DNA of 64,000 bases from Candidatus Obscuribacterales bacterium (GTDB lineage: Bacteria; Cyanobacteriota; Vampirovibrionia; Obscuribacterales; Obscuribacteraceae): assembly GCA_019745415.1 (NCBI GenBank), contig JAIETF010000056.1:1-64000 (forward strand), read 5' to 3'. The position numbers and the translations under genes were made by a program. This document shows positions 24,194 to 30,147 of this stretch, in pieces. The notes under the pieces were generated by a model, which made no database searches, was not told where the DNA came from, and was given only the letters and a program-made list of their open reading frames with translations. Every line of letters begins with the position of its first letter. Position 1 is the stretch's first letter.

Positions 24194-25012
24194 ATGAAGC
24201 TGGCAAATAATTGGCTGCTCGCTCTGGCATTTCTATTGGCTTGGGCATACAGTTGCACAGGCGCGCCTGGTCCTCTCGGCTGTTTCGCTCGCGAGCCTGG
24301 AGATAAGGGCGGCCAACCTGCTGACAATAACCGGCAGATTTCTGCTATTGGCAAAGCCAATAGCGTTTTTCTCAAACTGACAGCTTACTGCCAAAAAACT
24401 CGAAAACTGCTCATTTCCAACCGTTTTCAGCAAGTGGTTAAGGACGCGGATGCTGCTATTAAGGACCTTCCTGGTCAAGCTATGCCTTATTATTTCCGGG
24501 GGGTGGCTTATACCGAACTAAATGAAGCCAAAGCCGGGTTGGCTGATTTAGAACTATTCGAGCGTCTGCAAAAGCGCGCAAACATACCGGTGGAAGGTTA
24601 TGTATATGATTGCAAAGCCCGCAACTTTGCCGAGCTTGGGCAGTGGTCTAAAGCTTTGTATGAGGTAGAGCAGGCTCAAAAGACCGGGCAGTCTCTGGAG
24701 CGCTTTAAGTTGAAAGGGCAGATTCTGCGCAATTTGGGTCGGGAGGAAGAAGCGTCACAGCAGTTCATCAAGGCGCTCAAGATAGATCCTAAGCATTATT
24801 GGTCTGCGTATGAACTGGCCCGTTCATACGAGAACCGCAAAATGTACGACAAAGCGGTCGAGTCTGCCTCGCAAATGATTAAAATAAGGCCTAGCGAACC
24901 ATATGCCTACGGTTACAGGGCCCAACTTTTCAAGAAAATGGGCAAAGCCAAAGAAGCTCTAAAGGATGAACAGAGTGCCAAACAGATGGCCCAATCAGAA
25001 TTTCCCTTCTAG
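24194..25012 (+). CDS. Secreted TPR protein
   Basis: 272 aa. A hydrophobic N-terminus (NNWLLALAFLLAWAYSCTGA) is a signal peptide or, with the Cys, a non-canonical lipobox. Four to five TPR pairs follow (for example FRGVAYTELNEAKAGLADLE, GQILRNLGREEEASQQFIKA, YELARSYENRKMYDKAVESA, GYRAQLFKKMGKAKEALKDE). Its stop lies 47 bases inside the kinase gene that starts at 24966, so the two are translationally coupled and probably work together, perhaps as a periplasmic sensor partner. Confidence 0.78.
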   Translation: MKLANNWLLALAFLLAWAYSCTGAPGPLGCFAREPGDKGGQPADNNRQISAIGKANSVFLKLTAYCQKTRKLLISNRFQQVVKDADAAIKDLPGQAMPYYFRGVAYTELNEAKAGLADLELFERLQKRANIPVEGYVYDCKARNFAELGQWSKALYEVEQAQKTGQSLERFKLKGQILRNLGREEEASQQFIKALKIDPKHYWSAYELARSYENRKMYDKAVESASQMIKIRPSEPYAYGYRAQLFKKMGKAKEALKDEQSAKQMAQSEFPF

Positions 25013-28000
25013 ATTCAGTTCTTCTTTCTTTTTCATGGGGCTCTGTATTACTGTTTTGCCCTTTCTTGTTGGTCTTGCGGCGCTTGCTTCGATGTATTTT
25101 GTCGTACTTGCCGGACAGAACTATGCCAGGCAGGCCGAAGCTATTTGGGGTTCCTCGCAGGCTGTAGAAACTGCTTTCGCCGATCTGGTCTTGCATGGCT
25201 ATCGCAGGCTTAGTCCAATTTTTTCCGGTGAGGCGGTGGGCGAATTGCAGTTGCCGGAAAAGCTCTCCGGGCAGCCGCCAGTGCATGATCGACAAGCGGC
25301 TGGGCTTGCTGATTTATGCCGGTCGCTGCAGTCGGTGGTTGATCGAGAGTCGAACCGTTTGGCTGGTCAATCGTTCCACAGCAATCAGGCGAGACTGGTT
25401 AGTTATGCCGGACTTTCTCTAAAGACCTTGGGGGCAGCTGGTGCGGTTGATGATTATCTGCACCGCAATGAAGTGCAGGCGGAAGCTATCTGGCTGTCCT
25501 GGCAGCGTCTCTGTTCGTTGTTTTGGTTGCTTGCTTGGCTATCTATCGCTGTAAGCATCTCACTAGCCTTGATCATTGCCTCGTATTTCAATAAAGGAAT
25601 TGTGGCGCGCCTTTTTGCATTAGAGAATTTGGTCGCCGGTTTGGGGAAAGGCCAGTTCGCTTTTGCCCAGTTGGAAGAGAATGCTATCGTGTCTCATTCT
25701 TTGGCGGAGCCCGGAGCCTGGTGGTCTACTGCCGCTGCCTTTAGGTCAATTGAACAGGCCTTCACCAGGCTCTTTTGTCAGATAAACAAGAGTCGGCGTG
25801 AAAGTGCTGCCATTGTCGGTTTGTTGGCGGCCGATTTAGACACGACAGTGAAAGAACTGAAAGCAATTGAGGGCAATGAGGATAAGGCGCGGAAGATTAA
25901 TGCTGCACTGCACAAAATAAGCGACTTTGTTGGCGAACTGACGGCTCTATCAGATGCAATTGTGCCGGCCAGTCTAGAGAAGCTTTTCATCTCTGAGTTT
26001 AGGGTGAAAGAAGCTGTTGAAAAGGTTATTTTGGAACTATCGGCTCTGGCGTCCAGCCGAGAAATTGAGCTTGTTTTCGAAGGCAATGAAGAAACTCTTC
26101 TCGCCACCGATCGAAGAGTATTCGAGAATGTCTTGGCTAATCTATTAGGCAATGCCATTAAGTTTGCGCCAAGCCCTTCCAAAGTCAAGACTAAGCTATG
26201 GAGGCCTTCGTCGAGAAGCGGACTTTCGCAAGATTCGGTGGTTTTGCAAGTTATCGACAGTGGACCGGGGCTCAATCAAGAACAGGTAGACCAGATTTGG
26301 GGGAGTGGGGAGAGTAAGAGCCGGACTGCCATTGTCAGCGAGAAGTTCGGGCAAGGTTTTGGCCTTGGCTTAGCCTTCTGTCGTCTTATTCTAGAGCGTT
26401 GCGGTGCTCGACTCTCATATAGCAAAGAGGACGAACAGTCGATCTTCACCCTTACTTTTCCTTCTCAGCAGTTGGATCTGCTTGGTCTTGATCAAGTCGA
26501 TTCGGATAATGTCCGAAATCTCGCCTCGGAATCCCCTTCAAGAGCCGATTCGGCTTCTTGGCAGAAGACAGCGGTATCTCCCTTCCTCAAGAAGACAGTC
26601 TTGCTTATTTGCCTTCCAATTTTGTTTCAGGCTTGTCTTTTGGGTGCTCTAGCCATTAGCGTGCTCGACTCAGATAAGCTACTGATGCAAATAAAGTCTA
26701 GACAAGAAATCAGTGCTTATGCTGGTCGAGCTTGGCTCAATCTCTTCGCTGGCGGCTACTGGACGGCGCTCTCTTTAGCCATGCAGAACAGTCGGTATGC
26801 AGACAAGGCCACAACCTCTCTGGTTACCGTGCGCCAGGTATTGAACCGCCTTGATCTCTGCTCTCGCGACGAGATGAGAGATGAAGCGCTCTGGCGAGGC
26901 GTTATACCCACACTAGAAGGAGAATTGGGCCGATTGGATTCGGCTTTTGAGTCGACTATGGCTTCAGTTGGCTTTGGTCGAGAAGATATGCTTGGTTCGC
27001 TGGCCTTTTCGATCAAGCGGGGACAACTATTTTCTTTGCGAATGATGCAGGTCTTGTCGGGACAGTTCAGACAAATAGATGAAATTCTCTCACTGCAAGC
27101 GCAACGATTCCGCTTTTTACAATTTCAGTTTTTGTTCTTGACCCTGCTTTGCCTGGCTTGTTGTATCGCTTTGCCCGTTGTGTTCAGCCGCAATCTGGTG
27201 AGAAGGTTGGAGGTTTTAACAGCCCTGGCCTCAGGCGATGCCAGGCGCCAACTTAGAGAACACTCTGAATTTGCTGAAGTCGGCCCAGGTGACGAGATTG
27301 ATAGACTGCAAGCAAAGCTAGTCTCGATGTTAGTTCAGTTGGAAGAGAGTGAGAGCATGAAGGAGCGCCTGATCGCAGCTATTGCCCATGATATTCGCTC
27401 GCCTATTCAGAACTTGGTACTCTTGCTGGAAGACGGTCTGTCGGCAACTAGTTCTAGTGCCGATGAGGCGCTAAGTAGGTTTAAGCGCTCACTGGCTATT
27501 ATTCAAGATTTGCTCGTCTCTCAGAAACTCGCGGCTAGAGCAGAGATGCTAGACTTTGTCGACTCACCAAGCACTGTGGTCTCGCTGCAAGAATTGCTTG
27601 CCGACCAAGTGGCTGAGTTCGCTGATGAAGCCGGTCTCAAAGATGTCTTTATCGAAATGTCCGGCAGTTTTCCCGAGATTAAAGGCGATAGAAGTCTCAC
27701 TGCTCTTATGATCAGATATTTGATCAAATTTGCTCTTTCTCTCTGCCCAGATGGCCAGGTCTTGGTTCTTAAGGCTTCGCCGCCTCCGTCCCCAGATTCT
27801 AGTCATGGAGATGCCGCCGGTCTAACTTTGGCTGCCGGCATTACCGGAGATATAAGAGAGGCAATCAATGCCTGCACACGCTTTTCAGTAGAAGGGGGCA
27901 AAGACATAGAGGCTTATGCACTCTCTTTGATTTGGCAAAACTTAACCCGGCTAGTCGCTTTAACCGGTACTTCCTTGCAGGTGCGCTATAACAAAGAACT

Positions 28001-28031
28001 GCATGAAAGTCTGCTTGAAATTGACTTTTGA
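24966..28031 (+). CDS. Two-core membrane histidine kinase with complementary degenerate halves
   Basis: 1021 aa, overlapping the TPR gene. It is a fusion of two kinase units. Unit 1: TM helix (residues about 23-50), extracytoplasmic loop, TM helix (about 175-205), DHp-like helices, then an intact ATPase core (N box NLLGNAIKFAP, G1 DSGPGL, G2 GQGFGLGL). In its H box the phosphoacceptor is Ala289 (LAADLDTT). Unit 2: TM helix (about 535-560), loop, TM helix (about 720-745), HAMP-like linker, an intact H box with His808 (IAAIAHDIRSP), but an ATPase region lacking N and G boxes. The two halves may complement each other. The OmpR-type regulator at 28044 is convergent, 12 bases away, and is the obvious partner. 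Confidence 0.85.
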   Translation: MNRVPNRWPNQNFPSRFSSSFFFMGLCITVLPFLVGLAALASMYFVVLAGQNYARQAEAIWGSSQAVETAFADLVLHGYRRLSPIFSGEAVGELQLPEKLSGQPPVHDRQAAGLADLCRSLQSVVDRESNRLAGQSFHSNQARLVSYAGLSLKTLGAAGAVDDYLHRNEVQAEAIWLSWQRLCSLFWLLAWLSIAVSISLALIIASYFNKGIVARLFALENLVAGLGKGQFAFAQLEENAIVSHSLAEPGAWWSTAAAFRSIEQAFTRLFCQINKSRRESAAIVGLLAADLDTTVKELKAIEGNEDKARKINAALHKISDFVGELTALSDAIVPASLEKLFISEFRVKEAVEKVILELSALASSREIELVFEGNEETLLATDRRVFENVLANLLGNAIKFAPSPSKVKTKLWRPSSRSGLSQDSVVLQVIDSGPGLNQEQVDQIWGSGESKSRTAIVSEKFGQGFGLGLAFCRLILERCGARLSYSKEDEQSIFTLTFPSQQLDLLGLDQVDSDNVRNLASESPSRADSASWQKTAVSPFLKKTVLLICLPILFQACLLGALAISVLDSDKLLMQIKSRQEISAYAGRAWLNLFAGGYWTALSLAMQNSRYADKATTSLVTVRQVLNRLDLCSRDEMRDEALWRGVIPTLEGELGRLDSAFESTMASVGFGREDMLGSLAFSIKRGQLFSLRMMQVLSGQFRQIDEILSLQAQRFRFLQFQFLFLTLLCLACCIALPVVFSRNLVRRLEVLTALASGDARRQLREHSEFAEVGPGDEIDRLQAKLVSMLVQLEESESMKERLIAAIAHDIRSPIQNLVLLLEDGLSATSSSADEALSRFKRSLAIIQDLLVSQKLAARAEMLDFVDSPSTVVSLQELLADQVAEFADEAGLKDVFIEMSGSFPEIKGDRSLTALMIRYLIKFALSLCPDGQVLVLKASPPPSPDSSHGDAAGLTLAAGITGDIREAINACTRFSVEGGKDIEAYALSLIWQNLTRLVALTGTSLQVRYNKELHESLLEIDF

Positions 28032-28043
28032 TAGCTGTTCTCT

Positions 28044-28715
28044 TTAGCGTTCTAGAATATAGCCGGCACCTGGAATGGTTTTGATCAGGTCTTGCTGATT
28101 GAACAAACTCAGCTTTTGTCTCAAAAGACCCATCCAAGTGCGTACAGTGTTTGAGGTGGCAGCGCTGTCGGAAGACCAGACCATGTCTAGTAACTGTTGA
28201 GCGCTGAATATTTTATTGGGATTGCGCAGTAGAAACTCCAAAAGAGCTGTTTCTTTAGGACGGAGAGTGATTTTTTCATTGCCGTCGGTGAGCAAATTCA
28301 TCTCTGGTTTAAGCAAGAGCCCATTGGCTGTCAGTTCTGCTTCGAAGGCGCCTTGTCTTCTGCGCAAAAGACTGCGCAGTCGCGCTGCCAGCTCTCTCGC
28401 TGCAAAGGGTTTAGTGAGATAGTCGTCAGCCCCCGCTGATAGACCGCGCTCTAGAAATTCTATGTCGTTTTGACCAGTCAAGAATATGATTGGAGTCTGA
28501 CCGCCCCGCCGGCGGTACTCTTTGCAAATGGCTTCCCCGCTCAATCCAGGCAGATTCCAATCCAGCACTATCGCATCGTAGTGAAAGGACGAAAGCATTT
28601 GCAGGGCATCTTCGCCATCGTGGACCGATTCGATTTGGTAGGACTGTTCCTCTAAGAACTGAGTCAAACCGGCAACTAGATTTTGATCGTCATCGACAAG
28701 AAGAATTTTCGCCAT
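28044..28715 (-). CDS. OmpR/PhoB-family response regulator
   Basis: 223 aa from ATG 28715; a start five codons earlier is less likely. Receiver domain: acidic pocket VDDDQ, phosphoacceptor Asp52 (VLDWNLPG), switch Thr in FLTGQ, and Lys in DYLTKPF. Then a winged-helix DNA-binding domain (LRPKETALLEFLLRNPNKIF, SNTVRTWMGLLRQKL, IKTIPGAGYIL). Convergent with the two-core kinase. The unusual arrangement, kinase and regulator on opposite strands end to end, may use overlapping 3' ends for mutual control. Confidence 0.92.
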   Translation of the reverse strand: MAKILLVDDDQNLVAGLTQFLEEQSYQIESVHDGEDALQMLSSFHYDAIVLDWNLPGLSGEAICKEYRRRGGQTPIIFLTGQNDIEFLERGLSAGADDYLTKPFAARELAARLRSLLRRRQGAFEAELTANGLLLKPEMNLLTDGNEKITLRPKETALLEFLLRNPNKIFSAQQLLDMVWSSDSAATSNTVRTWMGLLRQKLSLFNQQDLIKTIPGAGYILER

Positions 28716-28806
28716 GCGTGCATTATACAAATTTGACGCTGGTTTTATATCGCTTCGCCTAACCTCGCACTATTGGAAATTACTGACGCTTTCCTGTGAG
28801 GTTGCA

Positions 28807-30147
28807 ATGATAACTGGCGAAATTAGGGCGACATATGTTGACAAACCTGCCGTGGCAATGCCTCCGAGTAAGCCGAATGAAGGCGAAGGACTCTGCCTAA
28901 TTGATCAGCTGACTGTACAGTTGCAAGAATTCGAGAAGCTATATAGAAATGTGCCGGAGTCTATGGCAAGCGGCGCAATCGAGCATTTTCGAGGCTTGAT
29001 TGCCATTTTCGATGAGCGTTACAGTAGGCTATCGGGGCTGGCCTTGGCTGAAATTAGTCGCATACAAATCGAGCTGATAGAGAACTCTTCGGCCGGGCGG
29101 TCTCTGCGCCAACGTCTTGAGTGCTATTTTGAGCAATCAAGTCAACCCTATGCCAAAACCTTGACGGCCCTGATTAATGATGTACTTTGCGGCAGCGATG
29201 TCAGCCTTGCCGACTTTATGAGAGCTGGTTTTGATTCAGATGAGGCGCTTATCTATCTAATCACTGCCTTTCTTGTCTGCCAAAGAAAAGAGGGAGAGCT
29301 TACCGAAAGGCTGGCAGTTTTGGAAAGAGAGGTGCACGAGTCTAAAGAGGCGCGATTGCAGGCCCGGCTCTTGTTGGCAAAAAGCTTAGAGAATTTAGGC
29401 TATATTCGCGATGCTCACAGTCTGGTTGAAGAATGGCAAAAGTTATTTGGTGCCGGACAGGGTCTAGCCGGCTCTGGGCCGGTCATAGGGTGGCAGAGTC
29501 GAACCGAAGTCATTCTCGACCGTCAGTCTAACTTTCAAGCCATGCTTGCTGAGTTGAAGAATTTTAGAGAAGAGTTTGGGCATTGCGACGTACCGAGGCG
29601 CTACAAAGAGAATCAGCGTTTAGCTATTTGGGTGGCCAATCTGCGCAGTCGACGCAAAAAGGGACTTCTTAGTCGCGAACGTGTTGAAGCGCTTGATCAA
29701 TTAGGCTTTCTCTGGGAGAGCAATAGACGACTGTGGCAGAATTACTTTGATGCTCTAGCTCAATTCATCAAAGAGCATGGTCATAGCTTTGTGCCAATAG
29801 ACTATGAAGAGAACCCAAGCCTGGCTAAATGGGTGCGCAATTTGCGCAAAGATGTACGCCGCCAATCTGTATCGGAAAGAAGAATCGCTGCCTTGAGAGC
29901 TATAGGCTTTGATTTTGAAGTGCGGGAGAAGGTCTGGTGTGAGCGCTTTGATCAGTTGCGTCTCTTTAAGGAGAGATTCGGTCACTGTCTTGTACCAAAC
30001 TCTTGGCCCGAGGATCGTACGCTATCGCGCTGGGTTTCACACCAGAGACAATGCTATAAGAACGGGCAGATTGAGCCTGAGCGGGTGGCTCTACTTGAGT
30101 CGCTGGGCTTCGTTTGGGCTCCGCAAAGAGGTCGGCCGAGCAAATAG
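28807..30147 (+). CDS. Protein with three helicase-associated (HA) repeats
   Basis: 446 aa from ATG 28807 (GAGG six bases upstream). The N-terminal half is helical without a named domain. The C-terminal ~210 residues hold three HA domains (pattern W-F-L-x-F-x-x-x-x-G-H-x-x-V-P...L-A-x-W-V...R), e.g. FREEFGHCDVPRRYKENQRL, FIKEHGHSFVPIDYEENPSL and FKERFGHCLVPNSWPEDRTL. HA repeats usually follow helicase domains and are thought to bind nucleic acid, but no helicase is present here. The C-terminus is basic. Likely DNA- or RNA-binding. Confidence 0.78.
   Translation: MITGEIRATYVDKPAVAMPPSKPNEGEGLCLIDQLTVQLQEFEKLYRNVPESMASGAIEHFRGLIAIFDERYSRLSGLALAEISRIQIELIENSSAGRSLRQRLECYFEQSSQPYAKTLTALINDVLCGSDVSLADFMRAGFDSDEALIYLITAFLVCQRKEGELTERLAVLEREVHESKEARLQARLLLAKSLENLGYIRDAHSLVEEWQKLFGAGQGLAGSGPVIGWQSRTEVILDRQSNFQAMLAELKNFREEFGHCDVPRRYKENQRLAIWVANLRSRRKKGLLSRERVEALDQLGFLWESNRRLWQNYFDALAQFIKEHGHSFVPIDYEENPSLAKWVRNLRKDVRRQSVSERRIAALRAIGFDFEVREKVWCERFDQLRLFKERFGHCLVPNSWPEDRTLSRWVSHQRQCYKNGQIEPERVALLESLGFVWAPQRGRPSK

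Follow-up and report, generated by a model that had tools for sequence, protein, structure and literature searches.

A tandem histidine kinase of Obscuribacteraceae with complementary loss of the phosphoacceptor histidine and the ATP-binding site in its two units

Introduction

How can a histidine kinase work if it carries two kinase cores in one chain and each core lacks the catalytic site that the other has kept? This question is raised by an ORF of a Candidatus Obscuribacterales bacterium, located in a stretch of 64,000 nucleotides (contig JAIETF010000056.1, positions 1 to 64,000) that was analysed as a whole and is referred to here as the window. The host genome of the window comprises 5.7 Mb; a near relative that has been named is Candidatus Obscuribacter phosphatis. 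As a rule, a histidine kinase is a symmetric homodimer, and it has been settled kinase by kinase whether phosphorylation takes place within or between the subunits.

Materials and methods

The survey of relatives was seeded with the architecture of the window kinase; it started from a protein search of 50 genomes of the family and was extended with profiles of two tandem groups, which added about 60 further stretches. Scoring combined an iterated core HMM with column reading. The 73 rows obtained correspond to 71 distinct genes, leaving out one duplicate (L053b and L062 are one gene) and L032, which was rejected as an intact tandem kinase, being a TodS-like hybrid with a receiver. Losses were counted on a tree made without the motif columns (INDEPENDENCE); independent-pair sign tests comprised too few pairs and have low power.

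Results

The kinase ORF and its surroundings contain the following features (window coordinates):

24194..25012, + strand: TPR protein with hydrophobic N-terminus (TPR families)
24966..28031, + strand: tandem histidine kinase ORF, 1021 aa, two sensor-kinase units in tandem
25008..25589, + strand: unit 1 TM1 - helical sensor - TM2 (AlphaFold helices 18-87, 109-134, 140-227)
25731..25964, + strand: unit 1 DHp without phosphoacceptor His (alignment)
25830..25832, + strand: Ala289 codon in the His column of the H box, LLAADLD (global alignment and direct reading)
25983..26471, + strand: unit 1 CA (ATPase) domain, intact (PF02518, key residues 8/8)
26139..26162, + strand: N box NLLGNAIK, residues 392-399 (direct reading)
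26256..26273, + strand: G1 box DSGPGL, residues 431-436 (direct reading)
26349..26372, + strand: G2 box GQGFGLGL, residues 462-469 (direct reading)
26580..27170, + strand: unit 2 TM3 - helical sensor - TM4 (AlphaFold helices 539-606, 609-633, 646-666, 679-755)
27303..27551, + strand: unit 2 DHp with intact H box (PF00512 HMM, alignment, AlphaFold)
27387..27389, + strand: codon of His808, the predicted phosphoacceptor, AIAHDIRSP (direct reading)
27567..28028, + strand: unit 2 degenerate CA domain, ATP boxes gone and fold retained (no motif; PDB fold matches)
28044..28730, - strand: OmpR-type response regulator, predicted cognate (PF00072 E=2e-30, PF00486 E=2e-20)

The single HATPase_c match of Pfam in the tandem kinase falls in unit 1 (residues 382-501, E=2e-16), where the N, G1 and G2 boxes are present and the position of the phosphoacceptor is taken by Ala289. 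A Lys that the HMM column alignment had placed at this position was rejected as a local misalignment, which leaves the class of the kinase unaffected, and a His near residue 314, seen in the translation, lies in the second DHp helix and not at an H-box position. The only HisKA match is found in unit 2 (residues 798-850, E=0.008); it lies under the curated gathering cut-off, and the region was counted as an H-box DHp because the H box, the alignment and the predicted fold all point the same way. Motif reading and the core HMM columns revealed no N, G1 or G2 box in unit 2, and the window kinase gave no match to the Response_reg domain of Pfam. Hence the HATPase domain with its three boxes is a property of unit 1 and not of unit 2, the phosphoacceptor His in an H box is a property of unit 2 and not of unit 1, and the two sites, which stand within one unit in a HisKA-type kinase, are placed in different units of the chain. 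This is the division that a preliminary description of the locus had read from its letters, and Pfam, alignment and direct reading confirm it. The same description had given each unit its own TM pair and sensor loop; the TM pairs stand, whereas the sensors are predicted by AlphaFold as long helical bundles instead of loops.

The start of the kinase is uncertain, with Met24 as an alternative. The first 47 nt of the ORF are shared with the upstream TPR gene, which has the same position in the ortholog L001 of Ca. Obscuribacter phosphatis, and the TPR protein is possibly an accessory protein of the sensor. L001 shares 76-80% identity with the window kinase along its full length and is split in the same way; in its sole ATPase the second Gly of G1 is replaced by Glu.

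AlphaFold modelled the whole chain with a pLDDT of 75.5 and a pTM of 0.59, and unit 2 alone with 82.0 and 0.75, respectively. In these models the C-terminal domain of unit 2 adopts a CA-like alpha/beta fold, and the best PDB matches of the unit 2 model are histidine kinase cores (RetS, DivL, GacS, ZraS and CusS), with RetS and DivL the closest. Nevertheless, it appears unlikely that unit 2 conceals an ATP site, because every motif residue is gone.

The search for the same pattern in relatives, proposed with the preliminary description, gave 53 complementary kinases among the 71 tandem kinases, together with 10 that have both cores intact, 7 with a single loss and 1 dead kinase. Both polarities occur: 41 of the 71 have lost H1 and ATP2 as has the window kinase (type A, ATP-then-His), and 12 have lost ATP1 and H2 (type B, His-then-ATP). 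None of the 71 retains both His and ATP site in one of its units while the other is dead, whereas random placing of the surviving His and ATP site after a double loss would leave them in the same unit in half of the cases. Because the complementary split recurs in 53 of the 71, we do not regard it as a product of chance. In five type B kinases (L116-L119 and L120) the whole CA domain of unit 1 is absent, and HAMP and the His-bearing DHp remain. The single losses concern ATP1 (L042, L065, L106), H1 (L063_2211, L086, L100) or H2 (L041). The dead kinase (L083:1990-4461, G029:C7), which shares its genome with the type A kinase L038, has lost both His and has damaged ATP sites, and is possibly a pure pseudokinase. 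L071, with an intact unit 1, is truncated ahead of the second DHp and was left unscored; it is a possible case of same-unit retention.

Relatives with both His residues, which the preliminary description had named as evidence against its reading, do exist (L039, L042 and L065); the related kinases L042 and L065, with both His and one ATPase, are an intermediate that would be expected. We do not take these relatives as refuting the split, because in the light of the loss pattern they are ancestral or intermediate. In a sample of 386 genomes of the phylum, with few candidates scored per genome, no match was obtained outside the family at E<=1e-110. Two clusters were observed in the course of the survey: at least six tandem-core kinase genes lie within about 25 kb at L062 and L063 (G032:C66:15067-40378), and three consecutive tandem kinases of 1250 aa, all with both cores intact, at L089:1585-13030 (G018:C2).

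If losses are treated as irreversible, the tree requires at least five losses of H1 and about eight of H2, and unrestricted parsimony gives 5 changes for H1, 7 for ATP1, 6 for H2 and 6 for ATP2; all these counts are estimates, as the deep branches are weak. In trees of the separate units, the first units of the large groups cluster together and the second units likewise, from which we conclude that the tandems of these groups are old; L059 has a recent duplication of its own. In the 57 units without His, this residue has been replaced by ten different residues, and the structural, helix-kinking Pro is kept in 55 of these DHps. The T/S+4 residue, at the place that the phosphatase residue has in EnvZ-type kinases, is kept in only 16 of the 57, compared with 73 of 81 His-bearing units; its loss from most His-less DHps is expected if the regulator meets only the His-bearing DHp.

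Comparison of the window kinase with L001 gave dN/dS values of 0.09 for DHp1, 0.14 for CA1, 0.13 for DHp2 and 0.21 for CA2, and of 0.11 and 0.06 for the sensors of unit 1 and unit 2, with 0.06-0.24 for the domains overall; only the linker of 26 codons reaches about 1. Purifying selection thus acts even on the DHp without His and on the dead ATPase domain, and the low dN/dS in both kinase halves indicates that both are retained.

The same division is found between separate genes. A complementary split is shown by five neighbouring pairs of kinase genes that are not fused (L080, L082, L108, L109 and L133); in these pairs the gene of the ATP partner precedes that of the His partner. One of them, L133 (G000:C2, L133:1213-4918), belongs to the host genome of the window and encodes proteins of 613 aa (Gln at the H site, ATP site intact) and 623 aa (His present, ATP site lost) in genes that overlap by 8 nt. 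Of the remaining single kinases examined in the host genome, most retain both His and ATP site.

A linked response regulator, as is typical of two-component systems, is present beside the window kinase: the OmpR-type gene is convergent with it across a gap of 12 nt. Convergent regulators, overlapping by up to 4 nt or separated by up to 25 nt, stand beside the kinases of the window, L001, L038, L041, L047, L057 and L070, and in L069 and L081 the regulator is on the same strand as the kinase. In the regulator tree, those linked to the type A kinases of the window, L001 and L038 form one clade (support 99/97), those of the type B kinases L041, L047, L057, L069, L070 and L081 (L041 being borderline) form another (95/76), and the two are joined with support 98/93. 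Within the window's clan, ATP-first kinases are therefore found beside one regulator subclade and His-first kinases beside the other, and these regulators are orthologous. Compared with the window locus, the regulators are about 50-53% identical and the kinases about 24%. Further downstream, the ORF 28714..30147 (+) gave three matches to Helicase-associated (HA) domains; a helicase domain was not found in it.

Discussion

We consider it probable that the window kinase is an obligate asymmetric sensor kinase acting from CA1 through His808 on the adjacent OmpR regulator, likely as a single-chain pseudo-heterodimer. ATP-bound CA1 would phosphorylate His808 in the unit 2 DHp, and the phosphate would then move from His808 to the regulator encoded at 28044..28730. 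DHp1 and DHp2 would form one four-helix bundle within a single chain, the four TM helices of the chain would replace the two pairs of an ordinary dimer, and each half would provide the part that the other is missing. The protein would have arisen when two complete kinases that phosphorylate between subunits were fused in tandem; after fusion each pair could spare an ATP site and a His, which would open the way to complementary loss.

Phosphorylation between the units is strongly supported at the level of sequence by decay in both polarities, in many lineages, by the lack of same-unit retention among the scored tandems, by single-loss intermediates and by the unfused pairs. Since about 50 relatives show complementary loss in either order, neither half is likely to work without the other. 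The proposal of the preliminary description, one kinase made of two units acting in cis or trans, is thus upheld by the loss pattern of the relatives as far as complementation between the units is concerned. We infer the direction of phosphotransfer and the partnership with the regulator, and more weakly, because of the fusion and the unfused pairs, intrachain over interchain pairing. The conservation of both sensors fits two inputs. An AND gate, as suggested earlier, is possible; AND, OR and graded integration would all look alike in the sequence.

A more conventional arrangement deserves attention, although we consider it rather unlikely. The chains might form an ordinary homodimer (DHp1 with DHp1, DHp2 with DHp2), with CA1 reaching His808 of the other or its own chain across two bundles. 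Kinases of the HisKA type dimerise via DHp, nothing in the sequence speaks against DHp2-DHp2 pairing, and the stoichiometry does not follow from complementation alone. However, a pair of DHp2 domains would hold two His without an active CA adjoining them, and the five two-gene versions with the same split fit pairing of unit 1 with unit 2. It is less probable still that unit 1 is a regulatory, ATP-binding pseudokinase and that His808 is phosphorylated by another kinase, or that the protein is only a phosphatase. Repurposed and pseudo-histidine kinases, DivL among them, have been described (PMC4211667; PMC9430884), and RetS and DivL are the nearest structures to unit 2, but this explanation does not predict losses in opposite units, in both orders and in many lineages. 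Neutral decay of a redundant gene with accidental complementarity, to which the fast divergence of the kinases (about 24% identity vs about 53% for the linked regulators) and the one dead relative L083 might point, is hardly credible in view of dN/dS far under 1 in all domains except the linker, 53 complementary against 0 same-unit cases and the conserved linked regulator.

The division between complementary subunits preferred here has a laboratory counterpart in EnvZ, where G2-box and H243A mutants, one subunit without an ATP site and one without His, complement each other in vitro and restore autophosphorylation in trans (PMC4734776). ArcB and EvgS phosphorylate in cis (PMC4734776), and the tandem families of Obscuribacteraceae would descend from the between-subunit type. 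The EnvZ heterodimers are a construct derived from a homodimer, whereas the tandem kinases are natural, fused and repeatedly evolved. Split histidine kinases on separate proteins are represented by CheA3/CheA4 of Rhodobacter sphaeroides, and potentially split and bifunctional kinases have been estimated at 1.7% of kinases (PMC3591291). In CheA3/CheA4, ATP binding and phosphorylatable His lie in separate, mutually dependent modules, and by motif content the window kinase likewise divides ATPase and His between two incomplete partners; these are, however, not separate proteins but parts of one ORF without a stop. CheA3 and CheA4 are two soluble chemotaxis proteins of the CheA type with entire domains missing, whereas the tandem kinases are fused HisKA-type membrane sensors of both polarities, mostly with point-decayed domains that have kept their fold.

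TodS is also a single polypeptide with two kinase cores; it has a receiver between them, a His-Asp-His-Asp relay and no TM helices, and both its autokinase modules have been described as working (PMC4321377). A receiver between the cores is absent from the window protein and present in L032 of the same host genome (G000:C23), which contains PAS and two receiver matches in addition to its two intact kinase cores. RetS/GacS and DivL/CckA resemble the tandem kinases in that a kinase-like protein acts via a partner kinase, and unit 2 is structurally similar to RetS and DivL; the PDB holds a structure in which the kinase region of RetS is complexed with the DHp of GacS (7n0e). These are separate genes with regulatory interactions and without a complementary division of ATP site and His. 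For the evolutionary route only, mammalian adenylyl cyclase, an unrelated enzyme, offers an analogy: its C1 and C2 form a fused pseudo-heterodimer descended from a homodimer, and the catalytic residues that one half has retained differ from those of the other. A fused tandem kinase with reciprocal loss, or a mention of one for Obscuribacter, was not found in the literature searched, which leaves most subscription journals outside, and the best 25 NCBIfam matches listed include no model of the tandem type. Split kinases being already known, we file the fused form, repeatedly evolved in both polarities, as a new variant.

For the family as a whole, we lean towards the view that Obscuribacteraceae possess a class of single-chain pseudo-heterodimeric kinases, in which repeated loss of His and ATP site, either way round, locks two sensors into an obligate kinase. 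If this is true, one natural family records both phosphorylation between subunits and the route from homodimer to heterodimer, and each tandem protein integrates two inputs. Evolution would have repeated the classical complementation experiment many times and either way round, leaving intermediates that are still intact or half decayed, and the path from a homodimer to an obligate heterodimer, as well as two-input sensing by a single kinase, would become testable in purified proteins.
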